From assembly GCA_902809985.1 (NCBI GenBank), contig CADDXC010000001.1:558001-622000 (forward strand): a stretch of DNA of 64,000 bases, written 5' to 3'. Below are positions 1 to 15,049 of the stretch, piece by piece. The notes under the pieces were generated by a model. That model was not told where the DNA came from, ran no database searches, and saw only the letters and a program-made list of their open reading frames with translations. This DNA comes from Clostridiaceae bacterium BL-3. Its GTDB lineage: Bacteria > Bacillota > Clostridia > Clostridiales > Clostridiaceae. Numbering within the stretch: position 1 is the stretch's first letter; each line of letters begins with the position of its first letter. The position numbers were made by a program, and so were the translations under genes.

Positions 1-108
1 GGAAAATGGGTACAGGCATTAGAAAGTACTTATGATGTGGTATATGCCTCGAATACTCAATTACAAGTATTTGTAAAGTTTGGCGGAGATATAAAAATAA
101 ATTATTAG
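1..108 (+). CDS. Phage structural protein, C-terminal end only (partial)
   Basis: An open frame enters from the left edge in frame 1 and stops at TAG 106-108, giving 35 residues that end in GGDIKINY. It lies 17 bases before the next tail-type gene, in the same direction, and a Shine-Dalgarno sequence for that gene follows its stop. By position it is the C-terminus of a tail, baseplate or neck-appendage protein. There is too little sequence to name a family. Confidence 0.5.
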   Translation, partial: GKWVQALESTYDVVYASNTQLQVFVKFGGDIKINY

Positions 109-125
109 ATAATGGAGGTTAAAAT

Positions 126-815: not shown

Positions 816-830
816 AGATAGCTTTTTTGT
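806..830 (+). terminator. Intrinsic terminator after the tail-fibre gene
   Basis: The stem AGCTA/TAGCT with a GAGA loop, extended by A-T pairs, is followed by a T tract. The upstream arm includes the tag stop codon at 813-815. Confidence 0.65.
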
Positions 831-882
831 TTTCGCTTTCCATATGTTAGAATTATATTATTACAATTATAGGAGGTAACAT

Positions 883-1119
883 ATGAGAGGCAAAAGTAAG
901 ATAAAATTAGGTAAAGAAACAAAGAAAGATATGGTTGATAAAATAAAAAAGTACTTCCTGAATGCCAGAGAGGAAGAATTAGGGGATTTAGCAGCAGGAC
1001 TAATCTTAGAATTTGTTATAGAAGAGTTAGCCCCGGAATTTTATAATCAAGGGATTTATGATTCATACGAATACATGAATGAGAGAGTTGAAGACTTATT
1101 GTCAATTCAGAGATATTAG
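883..1119 (+). CDS. DUF2164 family protein (phage-borne)
   Basis: This 78-residue protein starts at ATG 883 behind a strong AGGAGGT. It fits the DUF2164 family over its full length: IKLGKETKKDMVDKIKKYF, then EELGDLAAGLILEFVIEEL, then the hallmark FYNQGIYDS. The function of DUF2164 is not known. In prophages it often lies between tail and lysis genes, as here. Terminators lie on both sides, so it may be expressed as a nearly single-gene unit with some read-through. Confidence 0.7.
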   Translation: MRGKSKIKLGKETKKDMVDKIKKYFLNAREEELGDLAAGLILEFVIEELAPEFYNQGIYDSYEYMNERVEDLLSIQRY

Positions 1120-1150
1120 GAGTTTTGGAGAAATCCAAGGCTCTTTTCTT
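1120..1150 (+). terminator. Intrinsic terminator, GAAA tetraloop
   Basis: A 10-bp stem (1120-1129 with 1134-1143, two G-T wobbles) closes a GAAA loop and is followed by TTTTCTT. It begins directly after the DUF2164 stop codon. The stem and loop are nearly identical to those at 1401-1430. Confidence 0.85.
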
Positions 1151-1234
1151 ATAAACAAAATTTAATATTTTTTATAAATATTAGAGGGATTATCTTTTTT
1201 ATGTAGAATTATCCATAAAAAGGAGGGATGATTT

Positions 1235-1402
1235 TTGCCAAAGTGTAAATATTGTGGTGGGCCGCTAATGAAAATAAATAAAGCAAATGATGAAGATGCT
1301 TTATTTGTATGCGAAAATTCAAATTGCCCCGTAAATATTGCGAAGTCAGGGATAGGAAAAAATGAGAAACACAAAGAAAGGCGTAGCTTGATTATTAAAT
1401 GA
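1235..1402 (+). CDS. Small zinc-ribbon protein (55 aa, TTG start)
   Basis: A short frame starts at TTG 1235, preceded by AGGAGGG at 1221-1227, and stops at TGA 1400-1402. The product begins MPKCKYCGGPL and has two cysteine pairs, CKYC near residues 4-7 and CENSNC near residues 26-31. This pattern fits a treble-clef or zinc-ribbon knuckle. The C-terminal 20 residues are basic. The ATG at 1228 inside the Shine-Dalgarno region opens only a six-codon frame, so TTG is preferred. The stop codon runs into the next terminator stem. Function is unknown. Its place between phage structural and holin genes suggests a late accessory protein. Confidence 0.6.
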   Translation: MPKCKYCGGPLMKINKANDEDALFVCENSNCPVNIAKSGIGKNEKHKERRSLIIK

Positions 1403-1430
1403 GTTTTGGAGAAATCCAGAACTCTTTTTT
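1401..1430 (+). terminator. Intrinsic terminator, GAAA tetraloop (second copy)
   Basis: The stem 1401-1410 pairs with 1415-1424 around a GAAA loop and is followed by six T residues. The left arm is the same ten bases as at 1120-1129, so the two look duplicated. Confidence 0.88.
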
Positions 1431-1456
1431 AATACGAAATTTTAAGGAGGCTAGAG

Positions 1457-1681
1457 ATGGAAAATGAAATATTTAAAATGGCGGTACAGCAGGGATTATG
1501 GGCTGTACTGTTTATTTTTATACTTATCTATGTATTGAAGGAGCAGAAAGAGAGAGATGAAAAGGCAGGTGAAAGAGAAGCAAATTATCAGACTATTATA
1601 GCTAAACTTACAGATAGGTTGAAAGTTATGGACAATATAGGTGAGGATGTAAAAGAAATTAAAAACAAGATATTTAAATAG
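1457..1681 (+). CDS. BhlA/UviB family holin-like peptide
   Basis: This 74-residue protein starts at ATG 1457 behind AAGGAGG. A single membrane segment spans about residues 12-28 (LWAVLFIFILIYVL). A charged amphipathic helix full of K/E/R follows, ending KEIKNKIFK. Length and layout match the BhlA/UviB family of holin-like peptides found next to endolysins in clostridial and Bacillus prophages. It is 12 bases upstream of the endolysin. Its probable role is inner-membrane permeabilisation that lets the lysin reach the wall. Confidence 0.75.
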   Translation: MENEIFKMAVQQGLWAVLFIFILIYVLKEQKERDEKAGEREANYQTIIAKLTDRLKVMDNIGEDVKEIKNKIFK

Positions 1682-1693
1682 GAGGTAACCAAA

Positions 1694-2524
1694 TTGATTA
1701 AGGGTATTGATATAAGTAATTTAAACGGTTCTGTAGATATAAGCAAGATTAAAAATGCAGGTAATTCCTTTGTAATTGCAAAGGCCACTGAAGGAAGTAC
1801 TTTTGTAGACAAATATTACGAACAGAATATTAAAAACGCCAAAGCCCTGGGACTTGTTACCGGGGCTTATGCTTTTGGCAGGTTTACGACTAAAGAAAAA
1901 GCTATCCAGGAAGCCAGTTTTTTTAAATCCACTGTTGCAGGCACTGATCTTGACTTTGTAGTTCTAGATTTTGAACAGCAGTGCAGCGGGGACATGACGG
2001 ATGCCTGCCTGGCATTTCTGGATGCCATATCTTCTATAGCTCCGGCGGTGATTTATTGCAATCCAAGCTATATAAAAGAACATTTAAATTCCAGGATAAC
2101 GAAGTATCCTCTTTGGGTAGCCAACTATGGGGCAAGTGCTCCGTGTTTCACACTGTGGAGTAAATATGCTATATGGCAGTATACGAATAAAGGGCAGATA
2201 TCGGGTATGTTCGGATATGTAGATCTTAATTATATGGCGGATGATTTTTATAATCTTGTAAAAGGAGGTAAAAAGAAAGTGGATGCTATTGTGATATATA
2301 ACTACGGTGCTGATATGCATTCTGCGGAATTACTGGCTGATTTTTTAAATTGCCCTACAATTTCCAATGCCAGAAAGTTTGATTATTCTCAGGTGAAAAA
2401 CGTTTATGCTGTTGGAGGCAAAAAAGAGCAGTATACAAGCTATTTGACAGAACTTATCAGTGGTGAGGACAGATATGCTACTGCGCAGGCGGTGTTGGAC
2501 TTTATAAAAAATGGAGGGAAATAA
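1694..2524 (+). CDS. GH25 endolysin with CWB-type C-terminal domain
   Basis: This 276-residue protein starts at TTG 1694 behind GGAGGT at 1681-1686. Residues 1-185 are a glycoside hydrolase family 25 (Lyc) muramidase: the opening KGIDISN supplies the first catalytic-site Asp, and VVLDFEQQ carries the D-x-E acid pair. Residues about 196-276 form a small domain (AIVIYNYGAD ... NVYAVGG ... ISGEDRYATAQAV) related to the clostridial CWB2 fold and to the wall-binding domain of the CTP1L type of lysin. It cleaves peptidoglycan for host lysis. Codon 196 is GTG and sits behind a perfect internal ribosome site, so a second shorter product is likely. Confidence 0.9.
   Translation: MIKGIDISNLNGSVDISKIKNAGNSFVIAKATEGSTFVDKYYEQNIKNAKALGLVTGAYAFGRFTTKEKAIQEASFFKSTVAGTDLDFVVLDFEQQCSGDMTDACLAFLDAISSIAPAVIYCNPSYIKEHLNSRITKYPLWVANYGASAPCFTLWSKYAIWQYTNKGQISGMFGYVDLNYMADDFYNLVKGGKKKVDAIVIYNYGADMHSAELLADFLNCPTISNARKFDYSQVKNVYAVGGKKEQYTSYLTELISGEDRYATAQAVLDFIKNGGK
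2262..2281 (+). promoter_or_regulatory. Internal ribosome binding site and GTG start inside the endolysin
   Basis: AAGGAGGT at 2262-2269 is followed, after nine bases, by an in-frame GTG at 2279-2281 (codon 196). Initiation here would yield an 81-residue free wall-binding domain ending at the same stop, 2524. Endolysins of the CTP1L type are known to make such a secondary product. Use of this site is inferred from the sequence. Confidence 0.7.
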
Positions 2525-2525
2525 T

Positions 2526-2906
2526 ATGGGTAAGTTTTTTAAGTTAAAAAATGGTCAATGGCTTAAAATATTATTCAGTTATTGTTCTAATGAAAATGTA
2601 TGGTATATGACTATTGTAGTAAGTGATTCTAAAAGACAGTGTAATGATTGCATAAGAAAAACAGAAAATAGTCCTAAAGTGTTTTTTGGGCAATATACTG
2701 GAAGAAAGGCAGGATTAGAACCTTTTATTATTGCGCTAAGAGAACTGAAGACTTTAGAACAAACAGTAAGTAATTGTGAAATAAGAGTTTCAGGTGCTAG
2801 CAGTAGACTAAAAAATATATATAAGTGGCTAATATGGTATGGTTACAAAATTAAAAATATAAAAAATTTCGATAGGGATATGGAATTTTTTTATAAAGTT
2901 GTTTAA
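2526..2906 (+). CDS. Hypothetical phage protein (126 aa)
   Basis: The start is set at ATG 2526, six bases after GGAGGG; an in-frame ATG at 2511 lies before this ribosome site. The product has no membrane segment. It opens with a strand-rich part (KNGQWLKILFSY, WYMTIVVSD), contains CNDCIRK near residue 40, and ends with a basic and aromatic region. The layout resembles small phage proteins that follow clostridial endolysins, but I do not recognise a family. The start codon is one base beyond the endolysin stop, so it is probably co-expressed with lysis. Confidence 0.55.
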   Translation: MGKFFKLKNGQWLKILFSYCSNENVWYMTIVVSDSKRQCNDCIRKTENSPKVFFGQYTGRKAGLEPFIIALRELKTLEQTVSNCEIRVSGASSRLKNIYKWLIWYGYKIKNIKNFDRDMEFFYKVV

Positions 2907-2938
2907 CCAAATAAAGATTAATTGGGAGGAATGTAAAA

Positions 2939-3556
2939 ATGTCAGGTTTAAGTATATTATTTATTGTTACAGGGTTGGCTGTTGGGGCAGGGACCACAGT
3001 ACTGGCTCTTCTACCGACTTTAAAAAAGAAAGGTGTTGACACCGGAGAAGTGCTGAAAAAAGTTGAGACTGGCCTGCAAGAAGTTAAAAAGTATACAGAT
3101 GCGGCGAAAGCTATAGTACCGGGTAATAAATTTCTGAATATTTTGAGTATCATAGAACACTATGCGGAGATAGGTGTAGGACAAGCTCAGCAGCTCAATA
3201 TATCTTCACAGCTTCCAGCGGACCAGAGGAAAAAGAGTGCTGAAGATTATGTATATAGTGTACTTCAAGAGTTGGGTATAGAAGTGGATGACAATGTAAA
3301 AACCATAGTTTCCGGGGTAATTGAGAGTAAAGTATATGAGCTCAAAAGTCCAGAAGAGAAAAAGTCAGCTGGGCAGACGGCGACTCAAACTCAAATATCG
3401 CAGCTTCAAACTCAAAATTCACAGCTCCAAGGTGAAAGAACAAAATTACAACAAGAGAATGAAGAATTGAAAAAGAAGGTTGCTGATATGCAGAGTATTG
3501 TGGCTCCAGTGCAAAATACGACTAATACAGTAGCTCCAGCACAGCCAGCTCAATAA
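2939..3556 (+). CDS. LLH-type phage holin-like protein with coiled coil
   Basis: This 205-residue protein starts at ATG 2939 behind GGGAGG. A membrane segment spans residues 4-26 (LSILFIVTGLAVGAGTTVLA). A helical region follows, including TGLQEVKKYTDAAKAI and an EDYVYSVLQELGIEVDD motif typical of the LLH family of phage holins. Residues 150-185 are a Gln/Leu/Lys-rich coiled coil with the repeat QISQLQTQNSQLQ, and the C-terminus is Ala/Pro/Gln-rich. It is the last late gene before a strong terminator. It could be the main holin, with the 1457 peptide as accessory, or an anti-holin. Confidence 0.6.
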   Translation: MSGLSILFIVTGLAVGAGTTVLALLPTLKKKGVDTGEVLKKVETGLQEVKKYTDAAKAIVPGNKFLNILSIIEHYAEIGVGQAQQLNISSQLPADQRKKSAEDYVYSVLQELGIEVDDNVKTIVSGVIESKVYELKSPEEKKSAGQTATQTQISQLQTQNSQLQGERTKLQQENEELKKKVADMQSIVAPVQNTTNTVAPAQPAQ

Positions 3557-3560
3557 TTTT

Positions 3561-3597
3561 AGCCCGGTAGATTATTCCCACCGGGCTTTATTTTTTA
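3561..3597 (+). terminator. Strong terminator ending the phage late operon
   Basis: AGCCCGGT (3561-3568) pairs perfectly with ACCGGGCT (3580-3587) and is followed by TTATTTTTT. The T tract overlaps the 3' end of the convergent gene that ends at 3588. Confidence 0.9.
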
Positions 3598-4046
3598 TGC
3601 TTCTCTAAAAACGATTTGAAATATTTTTCTTCCGCTTCTTTACGGGCTTTTATGGCATCTTCAAGCTCTGTAAAATAGCCTAATATGTGTTGTTTCTTTT
3701 GAAACATTATATAGCTTATCCATTTTTCCCTTTTCTTGCTCCATCCTACCCCCTTTACTCCACTTTTGGTTACTTTAGATTTATTATTGCTTATTAATTT
3801 TTTAATAACGGCAATGTTAGTATTGCCTACAGAATTGGCTTCTTTTATATCTTCCAAGTGTTTTATAACCATACATCCACATGATCTTGTGGAACCAGAT
3901 GTAAGACTTTCTCTTCTTGTCACTATTATGTTGCCACAATCACACTTACATTTCCATAAAGAATTTTGGTACTTATCTACCCCCGCTTGCTCTAAAACAA
4001 CTAATTTCCCAAACCTTTGGCCCGTTAAATCTTTAATCTTCCCCAT
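3588..4046 (-). CDS. AP2-like DNA-binding protein (phage)
   Basis: This 152-residue protein reads leftward. It opens with KDLTGQRFGKLVVLEQ, the N-terminal signature of phage AP2/HNH-associated proteins. A four-cysteine zinc site follows (CKCDCG and SCGC, residues about 34-60). The C-terminal AP2-type region contains GVKGVGWSKKREKWISYI and LGYFTELEDAIKARKEAE. Homing-endonuclease relatives carry an HNH motif between such parts, but no His-Asn-His is visible here, so this looks like a DNA-binding protein without nuclease activity. It starts two bases after the upstream gene and is the last gene of a three-gene operon. Confidence 0.65.
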   Translation of the reverse strand: MGKIKDLTGQRFGKLVVLEQAGVDKYQNSLWKCKCDCGNIIVTRRESLTSGSTRSCGCMVIKHLEDIKEANSVGNTNIAVIKKLISNNKSKVTKSGVKGVGWSKKREKWISYIMFQKKQHILGYFTELEDAIKARKEAEEKYFKSFLEKHKK

Positions 4047-4048
4047 TT

Positions 4049-4420
4049 TTATACTTCCAAAGCGTGTTCTAATAGCTCTGGATAATTTTCAAATATATCA
4101 TCCCACTTGTCAAACCCTACCAATACGAACTCATTTGAGTCATTGTCACTTCTGTTGTACTCAATTCTATTTTCTTTAAATACAACTTCTATATCTGCAT
4201 CTAAAGGTATTTTTTTCTCTTTTGCCCATTCTTCATCACAAAGTGCTTTTTCTGCAGAGAGAGTAACGCTTTGAATTTCTTCCACAAAATAACTTTTAAT
4301 GTAATCACGCATAATAACCCGTATCACAGCACCTCCATCTTGTATTTTCTTTTTTGCAACTTCTCTAAATATTTTCTTCTCCGAGCTATTCACTCGGAGA
4401 TATATTCTATCATCTAGCAT
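4049..4420 (-). CDS. Ribbon-helix-helix-like small protein
   Basis: This 123-residue protein starts at ATG 4420 behind AAGGAGG on the minus strand; a longer frame back to 4459 lacks a ribosome site. Residues 3-40 (DRIYLRVNSSEKKIF, then AVIRVIMRDYI) have the strand-helix-helix pattern of RHH regulators and plasmid antitoxins. The rest is acidic and of unknown type (ADIEVVFKENRIEYN). The likely role is a DNA-binding regulator that may act on the palindrome at 4948-4973. That link is inferred. No classic toxin partner is recognisable. Confidence 0.5.
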   Translation of the reverse strand: MLDDRIYLRVNSSEKKIFREVAKKKIQDGGAVIRVIMRDYIKSYFVEEIQSVTLSAEKALCDEEWAKEKKIPLDADIEVVFKENRIEYNRSDNDSNEFVLVGFDKWDDIFENYPELLEHALEV

Positions 4421-4471
4421 TTTATTCCTCCTTATGGCAGTTTTCTGGATAACTGCCAACCAAAATATTTT

Positions 4472-4915
4472 CTATAACTGAATTGCTCCCTGTTCTATAC
4501 CGAAATACAATGCTGCTCCAACTTTCCCCTTTCCCTCAGCCTTTTTCTTGTCTAGGTCTATATAACCTTGGGAAGTCTTGCCGTCATCAACTGTGTAGTA
4601 CAATCTGTGTTTTCCGTATTTTGCCCAAGCTGAATAACTAATTTCAAATGTATGCTCTAAACTTTTTCCTAAATCACTAACAACCTTTTGAGGTACTTCA
4701 ATTTCAAACTCTCCGCATTTTTCTTTTGTAAAATCATCTAAGCCGTAATTCATTGACATTGTTTTAACTTCTTCCACTTTATTTTCCTCCTCCTTTTCGG
4801 AAAGGAGATATTTCATTTCAAGTCCAAACTGAAAACTATAATTAACTTCCGGAAATTCCTTTTTCATTTTCTTTGTTTCTTCATGTGCCTTTCTTACCAA
4901 CTTTTTACTAAACAT
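4472..4915 (-). CDS. Hypothetical phage protein, first gene of a leftward operon
   Basis: This 147-residue protein starts at ATG 4915 behind AAGGAAAGGGG. An upstream in-frame ATG at 4957 lies within the promoter and is rejected. The N-terminal 60 residues are charged and helical (KKLVRKAHEETKKMKKEF). The C-terminal half is strand-rich (EIEVPQKVV, HRLYYTVDDGKTSQGYI). I recognise no family. It is first in an operon with the RHH-like and AP2-like genes and is driven by a near-consensus promoter. Confidence 0.5.
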   Translation of the reverse strand: MFSKKLVRKAHEETKKMKKEFPEVNYSFQFGLEMKYLLSEKEEENKVEEVKTMSMNYGLDDFTKEKCGEFEIEVPQKVVSDLGKSLEHTFEISYSAWAKYGKHRLYYTVDDGKTSQGYIDLDKKKAEGKGKVGAALYFGIEQGAIQL

Positions 4916-4947
4916 TTTTTCATATCCCCTTTCCTTATCTTCAATTA

Positions 4948-4977
4948 CATTGTACACCCATGTACGTACAATGTCAA
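4948..4977 (-). promoter_or_regulatory. Near-consensus promoter with overlapping operator palindrome
   Basis: Read on the minus strand, TTGACA (4977-4972) and TACAAT (4954-4949) are separated by exactly 17 bases, a near-perfect vegetative promoter. CATTGTAC at 4948-4955 and its complement GTACAATG at 4966-4973 form an inverted repeat that covers the -10 and most of the spacer. A bound repressor would block RNA polymerase. The start codon at 4915 lies about 30 bases downstream of the expected transcript start. Confidence 0.75.
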
Positions 4978-5315
4978 GGGGATTTTATAAAGTTTTTTAA
5001 TAATATGCTATAATAAATTCATGAACTGCAACAAATGTTGTTTTTAAATAAGGTTAAGGTTCTTACTTGACCAGAGTTGAACCTCAACATGAGATATATT
5101 TAAACTAAAAGAGGAGACACATCTCTGCATCTCCATGATTTTTATTTTATATATTTTGTCGTCAAAAATTCGGCAAAAATAAAATTTTGATCTTCGCCTT
5201 TTGGGAGGATTTTTTTACATATTTAAATAAAATTTAGCAGGAATATGCATAATTATTATAGAAATGATCAATTATAAATGTTTTTACAATATAAATTAAT
5301 AAGGGGGATTTATTT
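4978..5315 (+). other. Intergenic region with possible small transcript
   Basis: No open frame of note lies here. A -10-like TATAAT at 5009-5014 is followed by a hairpin at about 5052-5092 (arms around AGGTTC/GAACCT, one mismatch). A weaker GGAGA/TCTCC hairpin lies near 5112-5136 and runs into a T-rich stretch. Together these could form a small RNA of about 130 bases, but the -35 is poor. Further right the DNA is AT-rich and supplies AAGGGGG as ribosome site for the gene at 5316. Confidence 0.3.
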
Positions 5316-6581
5316 ATGCGCAAGAAACTTTTAGGTGTTATAGTTACGTTGATATTAAGTGTATTGTTAATTATGCCAAGTCAAGTTGTTAATGCAGCAT
5401 CATTTAACCGAAGAATTTTCGGAAGTGATAGGTATCAAACTGGAGTAAAGATTGCGAGAGAGGGTTGGTCAAGTTCTCAATATGCAGTATTAGCAAGTGG
5501 ACAAGGGTTTGCGGATGCTTTAAGCGCAGCGCCATTGGCAAAAAAATATGATGCGCCAATACTTCTGAATGGTAAAAATACGCTAGATTCCAATGTAAAA
5601 AGTGAATTACAAAGTCTTTCCACACAAAATGTATTTATAATTGGTGGAACTGGATCTATATCTTCTAGTATTGAATCACAGTTACAATCCATGGGAATCA
5701 CGGTAACTAGAATTTATGGTAAAGACAGATTTGAAACTTCCTTGGAAGTTGCTAAAAATTTAGGAAGTTTTACTGGAATAGTTATTGTAAATGCATATGG
5801 ATTTGCGGATGCATTATCTATAGCACCAGTTGCGGCGAGCCAAGGAATGCCAATAATTTTGACACAGCCAAATACCTTATCTTCTGAAGCTAAAGAGTTT
5901 TTGGATAATAATAATTATAGTGAAAGTTATATATTGGGTGGAAATGGAGCCGTAGGAGATACTATAGCTTCGCAGCTAAAGAATGTTACTAGAATTGGTG
6001 GAGCAAATAGGTATGCCACAAATGCAGCTGTTCTAACTCAGTTTGCTAATGATTTCAGTTATGACAAAGTTTATGTAGTATCAGGGCAAAATTATCCGGA
6101 TGCTCTTTGCGGAAGTGCATTAGCAGCTAAATACAATTCACCTTTAATTTTAGTAGGAAGTTCAGTTGATGCTTCTGTTATAAATGCAGTTAAAGCAAAA
6201 CTTAGCTCATATGGAAATGTTATAGCGCTTGGTGGCACATCTGCTGTATCTGATGTAAATGCTGGAGATATAGCAAAAGGGAGTATAACACCGAAGCCTA
6301 CACCAAGTAAACCAGTTACCACTAAAGTAACTGCAAGCGTTAGTAATTCTAGGCCTAAAAAGAATGCTACGATATACTTGTATGCAACTGGACCTGTAGG
6401 AAGTAAGGTAACTGCTATATGCTATTATAAAACTACTAATTCAACTTATACTGGCACAGTAGGAAGTGATGGGAAGGCATCTATTCCTATTAAAATAGGT
6501 AGAGCTACCTCAAATTATAAAGTAATTATAAACGTAACTGTAGGTAGTGCTAAGGTGCAAACTTCATTTATACCATTATAG
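5316..6581 (+). CDS. Secreted cell wall binding repeat 2 (CWB2) protein on the prophage
   Basis: This 421-residue protein starts at ATG 5316 behind AAGGGGG. Residues 1-28 are a signal peptide ending around VVNAAS. Three CWB2 repeats cover about residues 30-325, each with an R-[IV]-x-G-x-[DN]-R-[FY] opening (IFGSDRYQT, IYGKDRFET, IGGANRYAT) and a FADALS/YPDALC and IIGG/LGG core. A short Thr/Pro linker (TPKPTPSKP) leads to a C-terminal Ig-like domain of about 90 residues. CWB2 triplets anchor proteins non-covalently to a secondary wall polymer. As prophage cargo it probably alters the lysogen surface. Its target is unknown. Confidence 0.88.
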   Translation: MRKKLLGVIVTLILSVLLIMPSQVVNAASFNRRIFGSDRYQTGVKIAREGWSSSQYAVLASGQGFADALSAAPLAKKYDAPILLNGKNTLDSNVKSELQSLSTQNVFIIGGTGSISSSIESQLQSMGITVTRIYGKDRFETSLEVAKNLGSFTGIVIVNAYGFADALSIAPVAASQGMPIILTQPNTLSSEAKEFLDNNNYSESYILGGNGAVGDTIASQLKNVTRIGGANRYATNAAVLTQFANDFSYDKVYVVSGQNYPDALCGSALAAKYNSPLILVGSSVDASVINAVKAKLSSYGNVIALGGTSAVSDVNAGDIAKGSITPKPTPSKPVTTKVTASVSNSRPKKNATIYLYATGPVGSKVTAICYYKTTNSTYTGTVGSDGKASIPIKIGRATSNYKVIINVTVGSAKVQTSFIPL

Positions 6582-6601
6582 ATTGAAAGGGAGTAGTTCT
6601 G

Positions 6602-7501
6602 GTGAGAAAAAGAAAATTTATAAATAAACTTCTAATAACATTCATTACAACAATTTTATTATTTACGATATCGGGATGCTCAGGTTCATCAAGTTCCAAC
6701 AGTACAGGTGCAACTAAACAAACGGCTCAAAGTTCTACTGAAAAAGCTAAAACTGTATCTAACACTAGCCAATCACCAATAAAACTTGAGAAAGCTAAAG
6801 TGACTCACCACACTGATGGAGATACAATAGGAGTGACTTTAGAGAATGGTCAGTATGCTAAAGTAAGGCTCATTGGTGTCAATACTCCTGAGAGCACAAC
6901 TAAGCATGAGCAGTATGGTGAAGAGGCAAGCAGCTATACAAAATCAAAGCTTTTAGGGAAAACCGTATATTTGGAAAAGGATGCAGGGAATACAGATACA
7001 TATGGAAGGTTATTAAGATATGTATGGCTTTCTCCACCAAAAGAAATAAATGAAAGTGAAATTAGAGCTAAAATGTTCAATGCCATACTTGCTTATAATG
7101 GCTATGCGGAACAGATGACAATCCAGCCTAATGTAAAATATGCTGATTATTTTAGAAAGTTCTGTGCTGAAGCGAGAGAAAATAGTAGAGGACTTTGGGC
7201 TATAAATCCTAATGGTACTACTAAAGGAGATGGTATAAGTGTCCCTTCAAGTTCTAGTTCTGCATCAAGTAGCAGCAGTTCATCTGGATCTTCAGCAAAT
7301 AGTAGTTCAGGTTCGTCTTCGTCTAGTCAAGGGAGTACAGCACCATCAGCATCTGGAAAGATAAAAGGTAATATAAACTCTAAAGGAGAGAAAATTTATC
7401 ATCTTCCAGGCGATCCATACTATGATAGAACCAATGCAGAAGAATATTTTAATACAGAAGCAGAGGCACAAGCCGCAGGTTACAGACCAATAAAAAGATA
7501 A
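6602..7501 (+). CDS. Lipoprotein with thermonuclease (SNase) domain and C-terminal sunset-type domain
   Basis: This 299-residue protein starts at GTG 6602 behind AAGGGAG, 20 bases after the CWB2 gene. A lipoprotein signal ends in ISGC near residue 26. Residues 62-200 form a staphylococcal-nuclease domain with the expected catalytic set: DGDTIGV, VRLIGVNTPE, YGEEA and YGRLLRYV. A long Ser-rich linker (about 210-245) follows. The C-terminal 45 residues (IYHLPGDPYYDRT ... EAEAQAAGYRP) match the small domain often attached to such nucleases. The protein should sit on the outer face of the membrane and cut nucleic acids there. Confidence 0.88.
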   Translation: MRKRKFINKLLITFITTILLFTISGCSGSSSSNSTGATKQTAQSSTEKAKTVSNTSQSPIKLEKAKVTHHTDGDTIGVTLENGQYAKVRLIGVNTPESTTKHEQYGEEASSYTKSKLLGKTVYLEKDAGNTDTYGRLLRYVWLSPPKEINESEIRAKMFNAILAYNGYAEQMTIQPNVKYADYFRKFCAEARENSRGLWAINPNGTTKGDGISVPSSSSSASSSSSSSGSSANSSSGSSSSSQGSTAPSASGKIKGNINSKGEKIYHLPGDPYYDRTNAEEYFNTEAEAQAAGYRPIKR

Positions 7502-7503
7502 AC

Positions 7504-7535
7504 AAAAGCTCTGGTGAATCCAGGGCTTTTAAAAA
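7504..7535 (+). terminator. Terminator after the nuclease lipoprotein gene
   Basis: AAAAGCTCTGG (7504-7514) pairs with CCAGGGCTTTT (7520-7530) with one wobble. It would stop rightward transcription before the attachment junction and the truncated pilus operon. Confidence 0.8.
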
Positions 7536-7542
7536 ACTTACA

Positions 7543-8010
7543 TTAATATATAACGTATTTTTTTATGTCGTAAATTTTTAATTTCAATAGTTTATTCCTG
7601 AGGCATATATAATTTTCTTTATTCATTCTCATACCACCTTTCCAGCGCGAATATTTACGCTGACTAAATCCCAGAATATTTTCTATATCTCCAATCTTAT
7701 ATTCCAGCTCGATAAAAAACTTCTTGTAATTTGGATTGTATATAAATAGTAGATAGTTATCCATAAGATACTTTGGATCAATTTTAAATACGTTTGCTAA
7801 CTTTCTTAGATTAGCAGCAGTTGGATAAAAAATATCATGCTCATATTCATATACCTGGGATTTAACTATTCCAGTTAATTTAGATAAATTTTCCTGGGAA
7901 ATTTTATTAAGCGATCTGTAATATCTTATTTTCTGCCCAACGCTAGATTTGAATTGGTAATCTTTCAACTCAACTATTGCTTTGAATGTCGCAATTTTGT
8001 TCCACTCCAA
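7543..8010 (-). CDS. XRE-type HTH regulator abutting the attachment junction
   Basis: The frame reads leftward. Residues with [19 protein letters not shown] and [13 protein letters not shown] form an XRE/Cro-type helix-turn-helix. A second HTH-like stretch ([18 protein letters not shown]) lies near the C-terminus. No ATG is available. The frame is open through the junction into antisense pilus DNA up to 8127. Possible starts are TTG at 8010, exactly at the junction, or TTG at 7968; GGAGTGG lies just downstream of 8010. The 5' end of the gene may have been changed by integration. It is the outermost prophage gene and may be a lysogeny or excision regulator. Confidence 0.6.
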
Positions 8011-8030
8011 ACGGGAAGCGGCAAGACTAC
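8003..8030. other. Probable prophage attachment junction (attR) within Walker A codons
   Basis: The host reading frame gives T-G-S-G-K-T-T-T from 8011. The conserved Gly-Pro that should precede it is replaced by unrelated codons (Leu-Gln). The crossover core therefore probably lies within or next to ACGGGAAGCGGCAAGAC (8011-8027). The matching copy would be at the far left end of the prophage, outside this window. Confidence 0.6.
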
Positions 8031-8712
8031 TACAGTTTATTCTATGGTGAGCAATATAAATGCTAGAGAAAAAAATATAGTGAGTATAGAAGATCCTGTA
8101 GAGTACACCCTGGACGATGTAAATCAAGTTAATGTAAATTCAAAAATAGGGCTTGACTTTGCCCGGGGACTCAGGAGCATTTTGCGTCAGGATCCGGATG
8201 TCATAATGCTTGGAGAGATAAGAGATGAAGAGACGGCACATATGGCTATAAGGGCAGCCGTGACAGGACATTTGGTTATAAGTACACTGCATACGAACAA
8301 CTCTGCTGAATCCGCGATAAGACTTAAAGATATGGGAATACCGGAATATTTTATACGGGATGCGCTTGTAGGCATAATATCCCAAAGGTTGGTCAGAAAA
8401 ATATGTCCTTACTGTAAAACAGAATACCAGGCTTCTCCAGAGGAAATTGTGAAATTGAATCTATCCTCTGAACAGGTTTTATACAAGGGAAAGGGCTGTG
8501 ACAGGTGTAACCATAAGGCATACAAAGGCAGGACAGTGATATATGATATTTCATATGTGAATGATTATATGAGAGGTTTTTCAAAAAACAGTGTATTGAA
8601 TGTTGAAAACAGCATAGAGGAATCAAGAGGGGCTACTATGAAGGAAAATTGTATGGAACTTGTTAAATCAGGTGTTACTACATATGAAGAGTTTCTCAGG
8701 ATGTGCCTGTAG
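8011..8712 (+). pseudogene. pilB: Type IV pilus assembly ATPase (PilB/GspE), 3' fragment
   Basis: The fragment begins inside Walker A (TGSGKTTT). It continues through the Asp box (VSIEDPVEY), Walker B ([14 protein letters not shown]), the His box ([11 protein letters not shown]) and the C-terminal tetracysteine zinc site (CPYC ... CDRC). The N-terminal half, normally about 300 residues, is missing and replaced by prophage DNA. An ATG at 7954 opens the same frame from phage sequence, but the first 19 residues are not pilus sequence, so no working ATPase can be made from it. PilB powers pilus extension. Excision of the prophage would be expected to restore the gene if the other half is intact at the left end. 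Confidence 0.85.
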
Positions 8713-9920
8713 TAAAGGCGGTGGATATTATAATAAAGTACTGGGCAATAAATATGGAAGGTAAAAAAATCAAAGGTAAATGCGAAAGATATAAATTTGC
8801 TCAATTAAAAGCTTCTTTGAGAGAAGAAGAATATTATATATATAACCAGAGCAGTGTAAAAAATTACAGAAATGTATTTTTAAAAAAATCCAGCATGATG
8901 GATATAAGTGTATTGTGCAGCCAGATGAGCATTATGCTGGGGGCAGGAATACCTGTGTCTAAGACGCTTGATGACTTAGAAAAGCAGTGTGGTAACAATT
9001 CCGTAAAACAGACTTTGAAAGCTGTAAAAGAAGAAGTGGTAAAAGGAAAAGAACTGCATGAAAGTATGGCTCAGTTTAAATATGTATTTCCTGTATTTAT
9101 GGTGGAAATGGTTAAAATAGGTGAAGAATCTGGAAGATTGGATGAAATATTCAAAAAATTATCTGAATATTATGAAAAATGTTACAGCATAATATCTTCA
9201 CTGAAAACTTCTCTCATATACCCTGCAATAACACTGGTAGTTTCAATATTTGTGCTGCTGTTTCTGATGGTTGATATAGTACCACAATTTATTGACATTA
9301 TAATTTCTAATGGGAGTGAAGTACCAGTTCTAACAAAAATAGTAATGTACAGTTGTCAGTTTCTCAGACTGCACTATATTCAAATTTTAGCATCAGTGAT
9401 TTTTATAGGGATAATATCCTATGGATTTAGAAAAAATTGCAGGGTGGCTGATATAGTAGAAAATATAAAAATTAGAATACCTTACTTCAATAAAATTTAC
9501 AGTGATCTTATGATTTTTAAAATATGTTCTTCGATGGCTATACTCGTAAAATCCGGGGTAAATATAATTACGGCTCTTAAAATCACAAGTGAATTGGCGG
9601 GTCATGGTATTATGTCAAATAAAATGGAGAAGGCAATAAAGTATGTGGAAGGAGGTGAAAGTATATGTGAAGCAATGAGTAAGGCAAAAATAAATGATAA
9701 ATTATTTTTATCTTTAATTAATACTGCTGAAAATACGGGAAATATAGATGTTATGTTTTTAAAGCTGGAGCAATTATTTGGGAATAAATTGGATAGGTGT
9801 TTGAAAAAGATGGTCAGGATTGTGGAGCCTATTATAATAATATTTTTGTCGCTGTTAGTAGGAATATTTGTTATATCAGCACTTATGCCTATCTTTACTA
9901 TAATGGAGTCTACATTGTAA
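8703..9920 (+). CDS. pilC: Type IV pilus inner-membrane platform protein PilC
   Basis: This 405-residue protein starts at GTG 8703, overlapping the ATPase gene end; GTG 8721 is an alternative. The N-terminus keeps the family opening ([15 protein letters not shown]). Two T2SSF domains follow, about residues 60-190 ([19 protein letters not shown], then [12 protein letters not shown]) and 265-395 ([18 protein letters not shown], then [12 protein letters not shown]). Membrane segments lie near residues 170-195, 215-240 and 375-400. PilC is the platform that the extension ATPase acts on. The gene is intact although its partner ATPase is split. Confidence 0.88.
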
Positions 9921-9954
9921 TTTATAAATAAGATTGAAAGAAGGTAGTTGAAAT

Positions 9955-10365
9955 ATGACAGGAAAATTCAGGTATAGAAGAAAGAAAGGATTTACCCTCA
10001 TAGAACTGATGTTAGTAGTTGCCATAATTTTAGTGCTTTTAGGGTTTCTGGTTCCTAAATTTTCTGCTTATCAAAATAAGGCTAAAATTACAAAGGCTGT
10101 TAATACGGCTAAGCAAATAGAAACGGCAGCTATGGCCAGTTATGGAGACAATGATGGAAAATTTGATGAGGTAGATGTAAAAAACTGTATATCCACCCTT
10201 ACCTCCGCTGGAGAGACCGGTGTTGAACTGGGCAGTGATGATCAGAACATTACTGTAAATTATGAAAGTGACAAGGATACCTATACTTTGGAAATTGACG
10301 CTGCAGATAATTCCTACATAGTGAGAAAAGAAGGCATTGAGATATTTCCTAATGATGAAAATTAA
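9955..10365 (+). CDS. Type IV prepilin, probable major pilin
   Basis: This 136-residue protein starts at ATG 9955 behind GAAAGAAGG. A short basic leader ends in KKG, followed by FTLIELMLVVAIILVLLGFL: the prepilin peptidase site G|F with Glu at +5 and the long hydrophobic helix. The globular part is small and acidic and contains a single Cys. It is the first and most typical pilin of the cluster, so it is the best candidate for the major subunit. It would be cleaved and methylated by a prepilin peptidase not encoded in this window. Confidence 0.85.
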   Translation: MTGKFRYRRKKGFTLIELMLVVAIILVLLGFLVPKFSAYQNKAKITKAVNTAKQIETAAMASYGDNDGKFDEVDVKNCISTLTSAGETGVELGSDDQNITVNYESDKDTYTLEIDAADNSYIVRKEGIEIFPNDEN

Positions 10366-10822
10366 AACTATGATTTCTGGAACCAAATCACGGGGTTTTA
10401 CGTTAATTGAACTGCTCCTTACTATGAGTTTATTTTCTGTAATTTTTAGCTTTAGTTTGATCACTTTGGGGTTCTACAGCAAAATTACTAACGAGATAGA
10501 TGTGGATTTAACTGACAATAATATTATAAATTTTATAAACAAATCCAAGGCTTATTGTAGAGATAATAAGAAAGAAGGAGGTTATATCTATTTTGATCAA
10601 GACAGTGAATGCATAACTTTTAACGTAGGTTTAAATGAAATATTCAATATGAGATTGCCGGAGGGATTTACTTTGAATGGGGTAAGAGATGATAACAGGA
10701 TAAAAATAGATAACCGGGGAATAACTCAAGATGCCTGTAGTATAAAGTTTAAGGATAGAAAAGAAAAAATTCACTGCCTGACTATGTGTGTGGGCACTGC
10801 TTATGTGGAGATAAAGTACTGA
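10352..10822 (+). CDS. Minor pilin / pseudopilin 1
   Basis: The site SRG|FTLIELLLTMSLFSVIFS is a class III signal sequence with Glu at +5. The start is uncertain: ATG 10352 is used, ATG 10355 is possible, and a TTG at 10337 with AAGAAGG close by is an alternative. The frame overlaps the preceding pilin gene by a few bases. The mature protein is about 140 residues and resembles GspH/PilE-like minor pilins in general plan only. Such proteins prime or cap the pilus. Confidence 0.7.
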   Translation: MMKIKTMISGTKSRGFTLIELLLTMSLFSVIFSFSLITLGFYSKITNEIDVDLTDNNIINFINKSKAYCRDNKKEGGYIYFDQDSECITFNVGLNEIFNMRLPEGFTLNGVRDDNRIKIDNRGITQDACSIKFKDRKEKIHCLTMCVGTAYVEIKY

Positions 10823-11292
10823 TGTGGAAGATAGGAAAAAATAATACAGCTAAAATAACAGTTAAGAGAGGATTTACCTTAATAGAAGTGCTGTGTAGTA
10901 TAGTGGTTTTTTCACTGCTGTTTATGGCAGCTCTCTGTATACAGGTAAGTGCTGTCAAAGTAAAGAATTATAATCAAGGTGTAAACAGGTGTACATTGAT
11001 TATGGAATATGTGAAAAATAATATTGAATATAATTTTAGTTATGAAGATGTTTTAAATTTATATGAAAAAGGCAGGGTATATTTAAACTGTGATGAGCTA
11101 AAGGTTGAAAATATGGAAAAAATAAAAGTTTATAATTCATTTTCTGATGTAAAGCCTGAAAAAGAGCCCTATATCATTTTAAATGTAACAGAAGGGGAGG
11201 TGTTAAAGATAAATTTACAATTTTGTAGAAAAATATATGGAAATATCAAGGTGGATAAATGTGAATTCTATAAGGGTAATTATAAAAGATAA
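10822..11292 (+). CDS. Minor pilin / pseudopilin 2 (PilV/GspI-like)
   Basis: The start ATG at 10822 overlaps the upstream stop codon as TGATG, with GTGGAG as ribosome site. A longer frame back to 10786 is rejected. The leader ends KRG and is followed by FTLIEVLCSIVVFSLLFMA. The motif FTLIEVL with a short Ala-rich continuation is typical of PilV/GspI-type minor pilins. The mature part carries several Cys residues and is rich in Lys/Glu. Co-translation with the neighbours is likely from the overlaps. Confidence 0.7.
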   Translation: MWKIGKNNTAKITVKRGFTLIEVLCSIVVFSLLFMAALCIQVSAVKVKNYNQGVNRCTLIMEYVKNNIEYNFSYEDVLNLYEKGRVYLNCDELKVENMEKIKVYNSFSDVKPEKEPYIILNVTEGEVLKINLQFCRKIYGNIKVDKCEFYKGNYKR

Positions 11293-11758
11293 AACGAAGT
11301 GTAGAAAAGGTTTTACAATTATAGAGATGATTATAGTTATAGCACTGGCAGCATCTATAACTACAGTACAGATAAGGGTCATATCAAAATACATGAGACT
11401 TCACAGGGAGGAAGTCAATTATAGCAGGGAGCTGTTTTATGTCAATGAAGCATTTATGATAATAGAACATCAAGTAGAGAGTGCTAAATATATTGATATA
11501 AAAGATAATATGATTGTATTGAGGAGATATGACGATAGAGGGTATGATTATATAAAAAAACATAATGATAATTATATTGTTATTTCCTATGGTTCCAACA
11601 ATTCTTCTACTTTAAACAATATATTGAAAGGAATAGAGGATTTTAGGGTGGAGAAGTATGGAAGAATTTTTTACATATCTATAGATATGGGGAAAGGTAG
11701 TTCTTATAAAAGATGTTTTGGAATAGAAAGAAAAAAGCTGAAAGAGGGTTTATATTGA
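11261..11758 (+). CDS. Minor pilin / pseudopilin 3 (PilW/GspJ-like)
   Basis: GTG 11261 is chosen because AAGGTGG lies six bases upstream; a longer frame from 11237 has no ribosome site. The leader CRKG is followed by FTIIEMIIVIALAASITTVQ. The body includes FMIIEHQVESAKYIDI, and ILKGIEDFRVEKYG near the C-terminus, as in PilW/GspJ-like proteins. It overlaps the end of the preceding pilin gene by 32 bases, and its 3' end overlaps the next gene. Confidence 0.68.
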   Translation: MNSIRVIIKDKTKCRKGFTIIEMIIVIALAASITTVQIRVISKYMRLHREEVNYSRELFYVNEAFMIIEHQVESAKYIDIKDNMIVLRRYDDRGYDYIKKHNDNYIVISYGSNNSSTLNNILKGIEDFRVEKYGRIFYISIDMGKGSSYKRCFGIERKKLKEGLY

Positions 11759-12162
11759 TATATGTGGTTCTTATAGGATGTATATGTATTTTTATTTCCC
11801 TTGGATGCTACAGTATGGAGATGAACATTAGATCGAATAATTTGAAGGATTATAAAAAATGCCTCGAGTTGGACATAATTGAAAAACCTAGAGAATATCT
11901 TTTAACTAGGTTAAATAGGTATATAGTTGAAAATGTATCTTGTAAAGAAAACAATTTAAAAGGGAGTAGGTGCTCTTTAGATAATATCAAGATATATTTT
12001 GAAGAATGCTATATATATTATGATGAGAATATAGATTGCTTTAAAGCAGAATACATATTTAATGGAAAATTTTATAAAGAAGAGATTTATGAATACGAGC
12101 TTAGAGAAGGGAGATTTGTATGCAGTTGTGTAGATTATTCCTTCAGCAGGGAGTGTAAGTAA
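11713..12162 (+). CDS. Minor pilin-like protein 4 (PilX/GspK-like position)
   Basis: This 149-residue protein starts at ATG 11713, overlapping its upstream neighbour by 46 bases. The leader ends in ERG, followed by FILIYVVLIGCICIFIS. The cleavage Gly is present but the usual Glu at +5 is replaced (F-I-L-I-Y). Pilins without Glu at +5 are typical of the tip protein GspK/PilX class. The mature part is Cys-rich (at least six). By position and the missing Glu it probably acts at the pilus tip. Confidence 0.6.
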   Translation: MFWNRKKKAERGFILIYVVLIGCICIFISLGCYSMEMNIRSNNLKDYKKCLELDIIEKPREYLLTRLNRYIVENVSCKENNLKGSRCSLDNIKIYFEECYIYYDENIDCFKAEYIFNGKFYKEEIYEYELREGRFVCSCVDYSFSRECK

Positions 12163-12163
12163 A

Positions 12164-12895
12164 ATGCATAGAAAGGTATTTCTAGAAGTAAATGATACAG
12201 ATATGGTGTATAGAGAAGTCCCAAATAAAAATTTTATATTCAATCTATTTAATAGTAGAGTAATTAATAAGAATATTGTTTCCATAAAGGGCATTAAAGT
12301 AAATTTAAAGAATAGAAATCTAGTTATTTTAGCTCATGGAGAAGAAGTATATGTGATGCTCATGAAATTACCCAGAGTAAGCAGAACAAATATCTTTAAA
12401 ATTATAAGGGAAGAACTTAAAAATAAATTTAAAAAAACCGATGATATAATGTTTTCCTATGATATAATCAGGCGCTGTAAATATAACCTGGAGGTAATGG
12501 TGTTCTGTATGAATTACCGTAACGGGAAAGTGATAGAAGAATGTCATAACGCCGGATTCCATATTGCCGGCATAGTGCCAATTCAATTTTATATTTGGGA
12601 AAATTATAAAGATAAAATAAAAAGTGAAAATTATATATTTGTATTAATGAGAAATGAGGTTTTATATTTTATAGCATGTCATAAATGTAAAATGATATTT
12701 AACAATGTGTTTAAAAATATAAAAAAGGATGACTTTTTTGATATTCTAGAACAATTTCAAATGAAGCTGAGTATTTTGATGACTGATTTTAAATTTACAT
12801 ATATATATTTTGTGGGTTTTCCCTATAAAGATACAATAGAAGAAGTATCTAAACAGTATATATGTAAAGATTTTGGAAAATTCATTGTAAAGTGA
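12164..12895 (+). CDS. PilM-like cytoplasmic protein (diverged)
   Basis: This 243-residue protein starts at ATG 12164 behind CAGGGAG, one base after the pilin-like gene. There is no membrane segment. The pattern VNLKNRNLVILAHGEEVYVMLMKLPRV followed by a small helical domain resembles the SHS2 part of PilM (actin-like). The product is short compared with about 340 residues for PilM, and no nucleotide-binding loops are clear. Placement directly before PilN- and PilO-like genes supports the call. It is context-based rather than motif-based. Confidence 0.5.
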   Translation: MHRKVFLEVNDTDMVYREVPNKNFIFNLFNSRVINKNIVSIKGIKVNLKNRNLVILAHGEEVYVMLMKLPRVSRTNIFKIIREELKNKFKKTDDIMFSYDIIRRCKYNLEVMVFCMNYRNGKVIEECHNAGFHIAGIVPIQFYIWENYKDKIKSENYIFVLMRNEVLYFIACHKCKMIFNNVFKNIKKDDFFDILEQFQMKLSILMTDFKFTYIYFVGFPYKDTIEEVSKQYICKDFGKFIVK

Positions 12896-12980
12896 TATTT
12901 AAGGTTTGTATGTTTTCTCATTTGACATTAATAATAGAAAAAAATAGGTATTTAAAATATTTAAGTGAGAGGTAGTTAAT

Positions 12981-13421
12981 GTGAAGGGATTATATTTTTT
13001 ACCTCAGTGGTATAAAGAAAGAGTAAAAGCGGAAAAAGGCAAAAAACTTAAATTTACGGTTGTATTGCTCTTGATAATAAATTTGCTGCTTGTAAATATG
13101 TTTATAGTAAATAAAAATAAACTGACCAATTTGGATGGTGAATTAAAGAATTCAGTATCCAGAAAAAGTTCTGTACATTATAAAAGCGGTACATTTGAAT
13201 GTTTTTTAAATTTTTACGAATACATATGGAAGGGAAAAACTTTTAAAGATATAAGTATTCAAAATAAAGATATAAATTTCAATGTAGAAGGTGAGGAAAA
13301 TTGTCTTTCACTGATCAAAAATATAGAGAACACAAATAAATTTATAATAAAAGATTTAAAATGTTTAGAGATTACGGACGGGGAAAAGAAAATCTGGCAG
13401 ATTAATTTAAGATTAAAATAA
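12981..13421 (+). CDS. PilN-like membrane protein
   Basis: This 146-residue protein starts at GTG 12981 behind GAGAGGT. The N-terminus LYFLPQWYKERVKAEKGKK matches the PilN opening (a short LPxWY/RER cytoplasmic peptide that docks on PilM). A membrane segment at about residues 25-44 and a small extracytoplasmic domain follow. PilN with PilO forms the alignment complex that links PilM to the pilus. The protein is at the short end for the family. Confidence 0.6.
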   Translation: MKGLYFLPQWYKERVKAEKGKKLKFTVVLLLIINLLLVNMFIVNKNKLTNLDGELKNSVSRKSSVHYKSGTFECFLNFYEYIWKGKTFKDISIQNKDINFNVEGEENCLSLIKNIENTNKFIIKDLKCLEITDGEKKIWQINLRLK

Positions 13422-13438
13422 TAGGTGGAATGATAATA

Positions 13439-13852
13439 ATGAAAATGGCAAATAATATATTTAGATTTACCATATTAGCTCTGATCTGCAGCTGTGTGTT
13501 TTTTTTATCAAAGAATTATGCTCTTATTAAAGATTTAAATGAAAAAAACGGAGTTCTTCAATTACAAGAGAATAATTTAAAGAAGAATTTGAAGAAGACG
13601 AGTGGAATAAGTTACAGTGATGTTTTACAGAAATTAAATGGTATAGAGGGGGTGCAAATATTAAATTTTTCAAGAAGTAGTGAGGGAAAAATAACTGTAA
13701 ATGTTGAAATAACAGGTGATAAAACTAAAGTTGTGGATGCTTTCAAAAAAATAAGTCAAAAAGAAAATTTTTATAGTATGGATAATATTACAATGGAACA
13801 GGACAGATATGAAAATTTAAAAGCAAGGACAGATATTAATTTTGTACCCTGA
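13439..13852 (+). CDS. PilO-like membrane protein
   Basis: Start ATG 13439 lies nine bases after AGGTGGA; ATG 13430 is the alternative. The product is about 137 residues, with a membrane segment at residues 7-25 and a coiled-coil stretch (NEKNGVLQLQENNLKKNLKK). A ferredoxin-like region follows (GVQILNFSRSSEGKITVNVEITGDKTKVVDAFKKIS), as in PilO and in GspM-type proteins. It is the last gene of the pilus cluster. Confidence 0.55.
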   Translation: MKMANNIFRFTILALICSCVFFLSKNYALIKDLNEKNGVLQLQENNLKKNLKKTSGISYSDVLQKLNGIEGVQILNFSRSSEGKITVNVEITGDKTKVVDAFKKISQKENFYSMDNITMEQDRYENLKARTDINFVP

Positions 13853-13972: not shown

Positions 13973-15049
13973 ATGTTTAAAAAGAGGATTGCGAAATTAA
14001 GAGAAGCTATGGGTAAAAAAAAATTGGATTCAGTTTTGTTGATGGGAGATCCAAATAGAAATTATTTAAGTGGATTTACGGGCAATGAAAGTTTTTCACT
14101 CATAACACAGGAAGAGGCATTCTTTATAACGGATTCGAGGTTTACAGAACAGGCTTCAGAACAGGTAAAAGATTATAAAATTTTAGAATATAGTAAAGGT
14201 ATGTCCTTTGTAGATTTTTTATCAGACTTAATAGATAAAAATAATATTAAAAGGCTTGGGTTTGAGGAAAACATAGTTTCCTACAGCCAATATGTGGTTT
14301 TTAACAGTAAATTGAATTGTCAGCTTGTTCCTATGGAGGGAATTGTAGAAGAAATAAGAATAGTAAAAGATGATGATGAAATAAAGTTAATGGAAGGGGC
14401 TGCTGCTATTGCAGATAAGGCCTTTGCACATATGGTAAATTTTATAAAATCAGGCATGACAGAGAGAGAAATAGGACTTGAATTGGAATTTCATATGAAA
14501 AAGTTAGGAGCCAGTGCTCTTTCATTTCCATCTATAGTGGCCTCCGGAGTGAGATCCAGTCTTCCTCATGGTGAAGCTACTGAAAAAGTGATAAAAAGAG
14601 GAGAGTTTTTAACTCTGGATTTTGGCTGCATTTATAAGGAGTACTGTTCTGATATGACAAGAACAGTTGTGATAGGTGAACCTTCAAGGGAAATGCTTAA
14701 AATATATAATATAGTTTTAGAGGCTGAACAATTGGCCTTAAAAGAGTATAAGCCTGGCATTCCAGCAGTGGAGGTGGATGCCGTTGCAAGAAATTATATA
14801 AGTGGAAAAGGATACGGGAAGAATTTTGGCCACAGCCTGGGTCATGGAGTAGGCAGAGAAATTCACGAGGCACCTATAATTGGCTATAAAAATAATAGAA
14901 AATTGGAATCAGGTATGGTGGTCAGCGATGAACCTGGGATATACATACCGGGTTTTGGTGGAGTTAGAATAGAAGATTTGCTTGTAGTAACTGAAGATGG
15001 TGGTAGGGTTTTGTCAAAGTCGCCTAAAAATTTAATATGCATAGATTAA
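13973..15049 (+). CDS. Xaa-Pro aminopeptidase / M24 metallopeptidase
   Basis: This 358-residue protein starts at ATG 13973 behind AGGAGG. Residues 1-130 form the creatinase-like N-terminal domain ([19 protein letters not shown]). The pita-bread catalytic domain follows, with all five metal ligands: [17 protein letters not shown] gives two Asp, GHSLGHGVG the His, DEPGIYI one Glu and RIEDLL the last Glu. It removes N-terminal residues before proline from peptides in the cytoplasm. In Firmicutes this gene typically sits directly upstream of efp, as here. Confidence 0.9.

Follow-up and report, generated by a model that had tools for sequence, protein, structure and literature searches.

The genome of Clostridiaceae bacterium BL-3 harbors a prophage inserted in a type IV pilus gene, and our preferred reading of this locus, to which we assign a probability of roughly 70%, is that a likely intact phage splits the only MshEN-type pilB of the genome at its Walker A codons and, in doing so, parts its own integrase gene from an HTH gene. 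Here, a phage disables the motor gene of a type IV pilus exactly at the P-loop, and further clostridial sequences show the case to recur; the locus also points towards an attachment site that lies within a coding unit of integrase and regulator.

The window, by which we mean the whole 64,000-nucleotide stretch analyzed here (C1:558001-622000, in a genome of seven contigs and 3.86 Mb), starts within the prophage, an element of 51,187 bp (about 51.2 kb; C1:514823-566009 plus core). The right end of the prophage occupies positions 1 to 8012 of the window, and its left end, with attL and the integrase gene, lies outside it, from L089:9823 onward. The initial annotation of this DNA had described a pilB frame truncated at Walker A (8011) with phage DNA directly upstream, and this description holds: in the frame ending at 8712 (pilB 3' half, 8010-8712, plus strand) the PF00437 (T2SSE) match is confined to positions 151-370 and begins at the Walker A codons near 8011, with phage DNA directly upstream. 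The corresponding 5' half, to be sought at the left prophage end according to the same annotation, was found there, 51.2 kb to the left on the same strand (C1:514029-514871, or L089:9029-9871), with an MshEN domain and T2SSE positions 4-154. Comparison of attL with attR (7986-8012, plus strand), in which a phage arm with the inverted repeat ATGTCGCAATTTTGTTCC (7986-8003) precedes the core at 8010-8012, reveals that the core common to both ends comprises three bases, AAC, within the Walker A codons. The left junction reads GGTCC-AAC-TGCTCGCGGAATAAAATTGCGACAT and the right one ATGTCGCAATTTTGTTCCACTCCA-AAC-GGGAAGCGGC; the long repeated core ACGGGAAGCGG that had been anticipated is absent from the left prophage end, where the junction was read directly. 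The motif TCCAA is also common to both prophage ends, but recombination at that motif would put pilB out of frame, whereas AAC restores an in-frame GPTGSGK. No tRNA that might have served as target was found in the window.

Rejoining the host flanks on AAC in silico, as precise excision would do, restores an uninterrupted, in-frame pilB that encodes GPTGSGK as in relatives. An assembly join was rejected, since the element lies within a single 3.14-Mb contig, and so was decay of pilB after insertion, because a substitution test on both halves revealed no excess. At the level of DNA sequence, both the insertion and its precision are demonstrated. The exactness of this restoration, the open frames with no excess of substitutions on both sides and the presence in databases of two proteins in attP form (P0122 and P0123) would also suit a regulated excision that restores pilB when pili are needed, as in other gene-interrupting prophages, but a recent insertion accounts equally well for the intact frames and we regard such a regulated return as quite unlikely.

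The 5' half of pilB was matched in all 13 genus genomes, and in the 12 others the frame is uninterrupted (469-511 aa), with both halves in one locus; a truncated pilB lacking a prophage, which the initial annotation had proposed to look for in relatives, occurs in none of these 12. That annotation had also proposed the P-loop codons as a highly conserved DNA target. The site is indeed hit repeatedly, as detailed below, but its codons carry synonymous differences in all 10 relatives shown in the comparison. Downstream of the prophage the rest of the pilus operon is intact, as had been claimed, with pilC and the pilin-like genes in open frames. The pilC gene (T2SSF; 8703-9920, plus strand), parted from its upstream gene half, is followed on the same strand by two pilin-like genes with N_methyl matches (9955-10365 and 10349-10822) and by further ORFs (10786-13852) that include, by eye, two pilin-like N termini and three genes that are pilM/N/O-like by position; three of the ORFs in this last stretch yielded no match in the Pfam scan. 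The lysogen would make no full PilB, and without it these pili could not extend. The loss of the extension ATPase from the lysogen is a fair prediction, because the split PilB is the only MshEN protein in the genome; the search behind this count detected MshEN in 5 of 14 control genomes and is blind to ATPases lacking it. The earlier claim of such a loss is qualified in turn by the eight PF00437 matches in the genome (the two pilB halves, a 351-aa protein that is PilT-like by eye, three others and two below the cut-off), since the three further T2SSE proteins have no assigned role.

The element responsible is likely a complete, intact temperate phage, as judged from its gene content. A PHROGs scan that covered 30 of the 78 listed prophage ORFs identified both terminase subunits, portal, head morphogenesis, major head, tail tube, tape measure and tail proteins, together with an endolysin and genes for an ImmR/ImmA-like repressor pair and for Gam-like and DnaD-like replication proteins. 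Two small ORFs among the tail genes (L091:6213-6829) resemble, by eye, a Phd/Doc toxin-antitoxin pair. The integrase, encoded next to attL in a gene that ends 42 bases before the core, belongs to the large serine recombinases; it has 537 aa, and Pfam marks Resolvase, Recombinase and zinc-ribbon domains in it. The attachment sites fit an enzyme of this class in their short core, their imperfect inverted-repeat attP arms and an attB unlike attP, and integration was presumably carried out by this integrase of the prophage itself. At the other end, a nuclease gene (6602-7501, plus strand; phrog_20876, E 7e-61), with a lipoprotein-like N terminus by eye, adjoins attR and runs convergently with the HTH gene; its product might act on extracellular DNA, which would fit a shield against transformation. 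The hairpin between these two convergent genes at 7504-7535, which had been put forward as a terminator facing pilB, can be seen by eye, but it is not among the results of a terminator scan of 7400-10000. A promoter scan returned 22 sites against 13.0 (sd 3.6) in shuffled sequences and was set aside.

The nearest precedents for the effect on pilB are a prophage in comGA (PMC7029219) and prophages in pneumococcal competence genes (PMC12637031). The first, SpST71A, is a prophage of about 44 kb that divides comGA of Staphylococcus pseudintermedius into parts of 509 and 479 bp (PMC7029219); as in our case, the gene split encodes a pilus or pseudopilus ATPase (PilB/ComGA), but there it belongs to the competence comG operon and here it is a type IV pilus pilB with MshEN. 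In the second, attachment sites break DNA-uptake genes such as comYC, and shielding has been argued from experiments (PMC12637031); the attachment site described here likewise breaks a putative uptake gene, although the genes are other ones and shielding enters only as an alternative explanation. By that alternative, the loss of pilB would protect the prophage, in that a cell lacking the pilus would not take up, by a putative uptake route, DNA able to replace the prophage through recombination. Besides the two precedents, the comEC and dprA homologs present in the genome and the nuclease encoded by the prophage speak for it; the ImmR/ImmA-like pair speaks against it, for in the pneumococcal study C1-type regulators dominate at the competence-breaking sites (PMC12637031). 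We consider this explanation possible but rather doubtful.

Recurrence at the pilB site is demonstrated by three further database proteins that show it occupied (P0125, P0126 and P0127), the evidence from P0121-P0127 being at the protein level only. P0125, from Clostridium sp. HV4-5-A1G (a strain whose nearest type strain by 16S is C. luticellarii, according to PMC6965590), is an attR form of the same HTH gene: its N-terminal 42 residues derive from antisense pilB and agree with the window at 41 positions, the exception being the start. The host in the window is, by this match, probably a Clostridium. Over its length P0125 is 71% like the HTH protein of the window, so that it probably derives from a different phage at the same site. 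P0126, from Clostridium sp. Mt-5, is a further attR form in a different pilB, its first 42 residues matching the antisense reading of pilB both in the window (52%) and in relatives; the contigs that hold P0126 and the integrase P0001, both from this strain, are of unequal size, which was counted against the case. P0127, encoded on a contig of 1.1 kb, corresponds to the 5' half of pilB (90-93% like its counterparts in G003, G005 and G006), breaks off after GPT and continues in an attL-like tail, ARRTKMR against ARGIKLR in the prophage of the window. Such repeated use of the pilB site, together with the repeated order integrase-attP-HTH, argues against the proposal that the site is merely a convenient attB, with pilB loss as a side effect and the displaced HTH gene as a passive bystander. 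That proposal draws on the different host genes that integrases of the clade adjoin elsewhere, by eye, and on the putative status of pilus function in this strain, and we deem it unlikely.

Traces of earlier events are also present in the genus. In G006, about 10 kb of inserted DNA separates a lipoprotein gene from an intact pilB and is bordered by an integrase remnant, 91% like P0003 over 128 residues, and by an ImmA-like remnant (L149:4270-4841 and 14056-14331); in G003, an ImmA-like remnant (L173:17410-17652) lies in an insert between the lipoprotein gene and an intact pilB. These remnants next to intact pilB genes suggest that the locus has been invaded before. Separately, the PilB-like protein P0128 (339 aa; contig of 44.7 kb) ends shortly past RQDPD, close to Walker B, and possibly reflects another type of pilB insertion. 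At a threshold of E 1e-150, the integrase search over 225 genomes of the order found matches in 31 genomes, the best besides that of the window itself being 55% identical; shorter integrase remnants of higher identity are present in G006 and G005.

The second consequence of the insertion concerns the phage itself. The phage HTH gene (HTH_19; 7543-8010, minus strand) is cut off in the lysogen from the start that free phage DNA would give it, and the ORF that contains it there (7543-8127, minus strand) takes its first 39 codons from antisense pilB. Across the joined phage ends, the HTH gene comes immediately behind the integrase gene; its first codons, ATG TCG CAA TTT, lie in the left arm and start 17 bases downstream of the integrase stop. 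At the sequence level, attP lies within the HTH reading frame, at its 5' end behind the integrase gene, so that one crossover cuts both pilB and the integrase-HTH unit of the phage. The attP-form proteins P0122 and P0123, encoded on contigs of 1.2 and 1.0 kb, begin MSQFYSASSWERNKIATF and MSQFCSASSLEWNRIATF, and their simplest origin would be phage DNA in free or circular form; SSLEWN in P0123 is likewise compatible with the AAC core. A structure model of P0122 is helical, with a mean pLDDT of 61 and values under 50 at residues 1-30, and was too weak for a fold search. A role of the HTH protein as directionality factor was set aside by reasoning alone.

HTH matches occur in 18 genomes (own included), those in other genomes being weak, and proteins of this kind are common in phages, which was counted against our best explanation. 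HTH gene and integrase share a contig in 10 of the 18 and stand side by side in two of these (G004 and G021); in the other eight (G000, G147, G148, G178, G189, G206, G207 and G208) they lie 38-94 kb apart on one strand, the HTH gene being the 5' and the integrase the 3' member of each pair. The remaining eight of the 18 have the integrase on another contig (three genomes) or none at the search threshold (five). Attachment-arm scores range from 15.5 to 19.5 in G000, G004, G021 and G189, reach 12 in G147 and fall to 7.5-10.5, near chance, in G013, G148, G158, G178, G179, G206 and G208; G207 could not be placed.

How the two genes might be read together is suggested by an adenine run at the end of the integrase gene. 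Of 54 integrase genes tabulated, 51 had at least 480 codons; 14 of these 51, a set that includes the gene of this phage, carry a run of A8 or longer in their last 21 bases, against 0.42 expected from the remaining sequence of the same genes. In these 14, the -1 frame stays open past the stop for a median of 38 codons versus 10.5 for the +1 frame (p 3e-5), and versus a -1 median of 11.5 in the 40 others (p 4e-5). Three examples are uninterrupted: the second contig of G004 (G004:C2, 58.6 kb), contig C23 of G021 and the virion (particle-protected) DNA of TPELB_ph1. In each, the HTH frame is -1 relative to the integrase and stays open from the A-run at the integrase end through attP, for 168, 179 and 125 codons past the stop, respectively. 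The phage of the window has A AAA AAC within its run, and its -1 frame reaches the attP ATG without a stop; in the lysogen, the -1 frame from the A-run ends in ...LKNSLSDMSQFYSASSWTRH. Like genes subject to -1 frameshifting or slippage, the integrase frame contains a slippery run past which the -1 frame remains open. A strong hairpin encloses the A-run in G021 (L196) and begins at its end in TPELB_ph1 (L197), and both are possible slippage stimulators; no hairpin was found close to the A-run at attL of the phage of the window. Counted against a slip are the 37 of 51 integrase genes without an A-run and two clostridial plasmid integrases that also lack it, the stretch of one of them ending 22 bases after the stop.

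These same frames bear on an account in which the HTH protein is separate, started at an ATG or other start within attP of the free phage, and integration simply removes its start. An ATG does open the HTH frame in the phage of the window and in P0122 and P0123, and a TTG within attP could start the gene in G004. In G004:C2, G021:C23 and TPELB_ph1, however, no stop interrupts the HTH frame between the A-run and the HTH gene, and relatives encode the integrase and HTH parts in one protein. By eye, moreover, no good ribosome site precedes the attP ATG, a point also counted against our preferred reading, and a separate HTH start has no clear one. On balance we doubt this account, while regarding it as quite possible.

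The single-protein relatives come from a homolog search in which 8000 candidates were scored and 120 of 6431 matches are listed. Nine of the 120 listed (641-704 aa) run on into an HTH region, marked by Pfam in eight and recognized by eye in P0031, 65 end in KKK or KKN and 46 end otherwise. The tail of P0031 aligns with P0122 from the first residue of the latter (34% over 160, E 8e-25), and eight of the nine long homologs have a linker like LSQFYTASSWERNK or LSQFYTASSWERNKTG, P0099 having another. By eye, at least 11 of the 46 other homologs end in a linker-like motif followed by a short unrelated tail, as expected of fusions cut by integration. The conservation of the linker could, on the other hand, reflect attP as DNA. 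The three closest homologs among the matches listed (71-76% identical) end in KKN.

With the integrase-HTH unit as our preferred reading, integration likely changes what the phage makes as well. In the free phage, integrase mRNA would run through attP into the HTH frame. A -1 slip at the A-run, whether by ribosomal frameshifting or by transcriptional slippage (the outcome would be the same), would lead into this frame and yield an integrase with a double-HTH tail. After integration, this tail would be replaced by a few codons read from antisense pilB. We infer the fusion protein and a function for its tail. Integration would alter the pili of the host and the control of the phage simultaneously, and both would return to their earlier state on excision. 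More generally, and more tentatively, it seems conceivable, though somewhat short of probable, that a branch of clostridial phages carries attP inside an integrase-HTH unit and that integration removes the double-HTH tail of the free phage, whether joined in frame or by a -1 slip, so that the integrase records the integration state, with the same crossover acting as a pilus off switch in the pilB branch. If the fusion is real, phage control or recombination would be coupled by simple means to whether the phage is integrated, and serine integrases, which are in wide use as tools, would gain a new natural design. The HTH tail would escape notice when such integrases are annotated from prophages, because integration removes it.

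Attachment sites within coding units are not without parallel. Phage Mx8 has attP inside its integrase gene, and integration alters the integrase end, but its integrase is of the tyrosine type and is not known to carry an HTH tail. Terrisporobacter phage TPELB_ph1 (PP197244.1) is alike in having an integrase 46% identical, an A9 near the stop, an inverted repeat and an HTH-like frame at -1; its record annotates the integrase and a separate hypothetical protein. For an attP inside a regulator gene, the nearest precedent is mycobacteriophage BPs, in which immunity depends on integration and attP lies inside the repressor gene beside the integrase gene (PMC4557955). Both phages place attP inside a regulator frame next to the integrase gene, and in both integration changes the product, but the BPs repressor loses its C-terminal end whereas the HTH gene studied here is deprived of its 5' end and separated from the integrase, and the phage is not classed as a member of the BPs kind. 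It also differs in that its integrase is a serine recombinase and that a repressor role of the HTH protein is only putative. In openly licensed literature, searched by titles and abstract openings, the matches listed included no prophage in a clostridial pilB and no integrase-HTH unit across attP.

In viral contigs, none of eight integrase loci has a PilB match at its ends; repeat scans with P0001 and P0003 led to one already-known locus of the eight, and the scan with P0125 to none. The attachment-arm pattern had no matches in viral contigs. In three genomes (L164, L166 and L172), integrases adjoin similar host genes that share a YCPC..ESG.C..C motif, another recurrent target of the clade.
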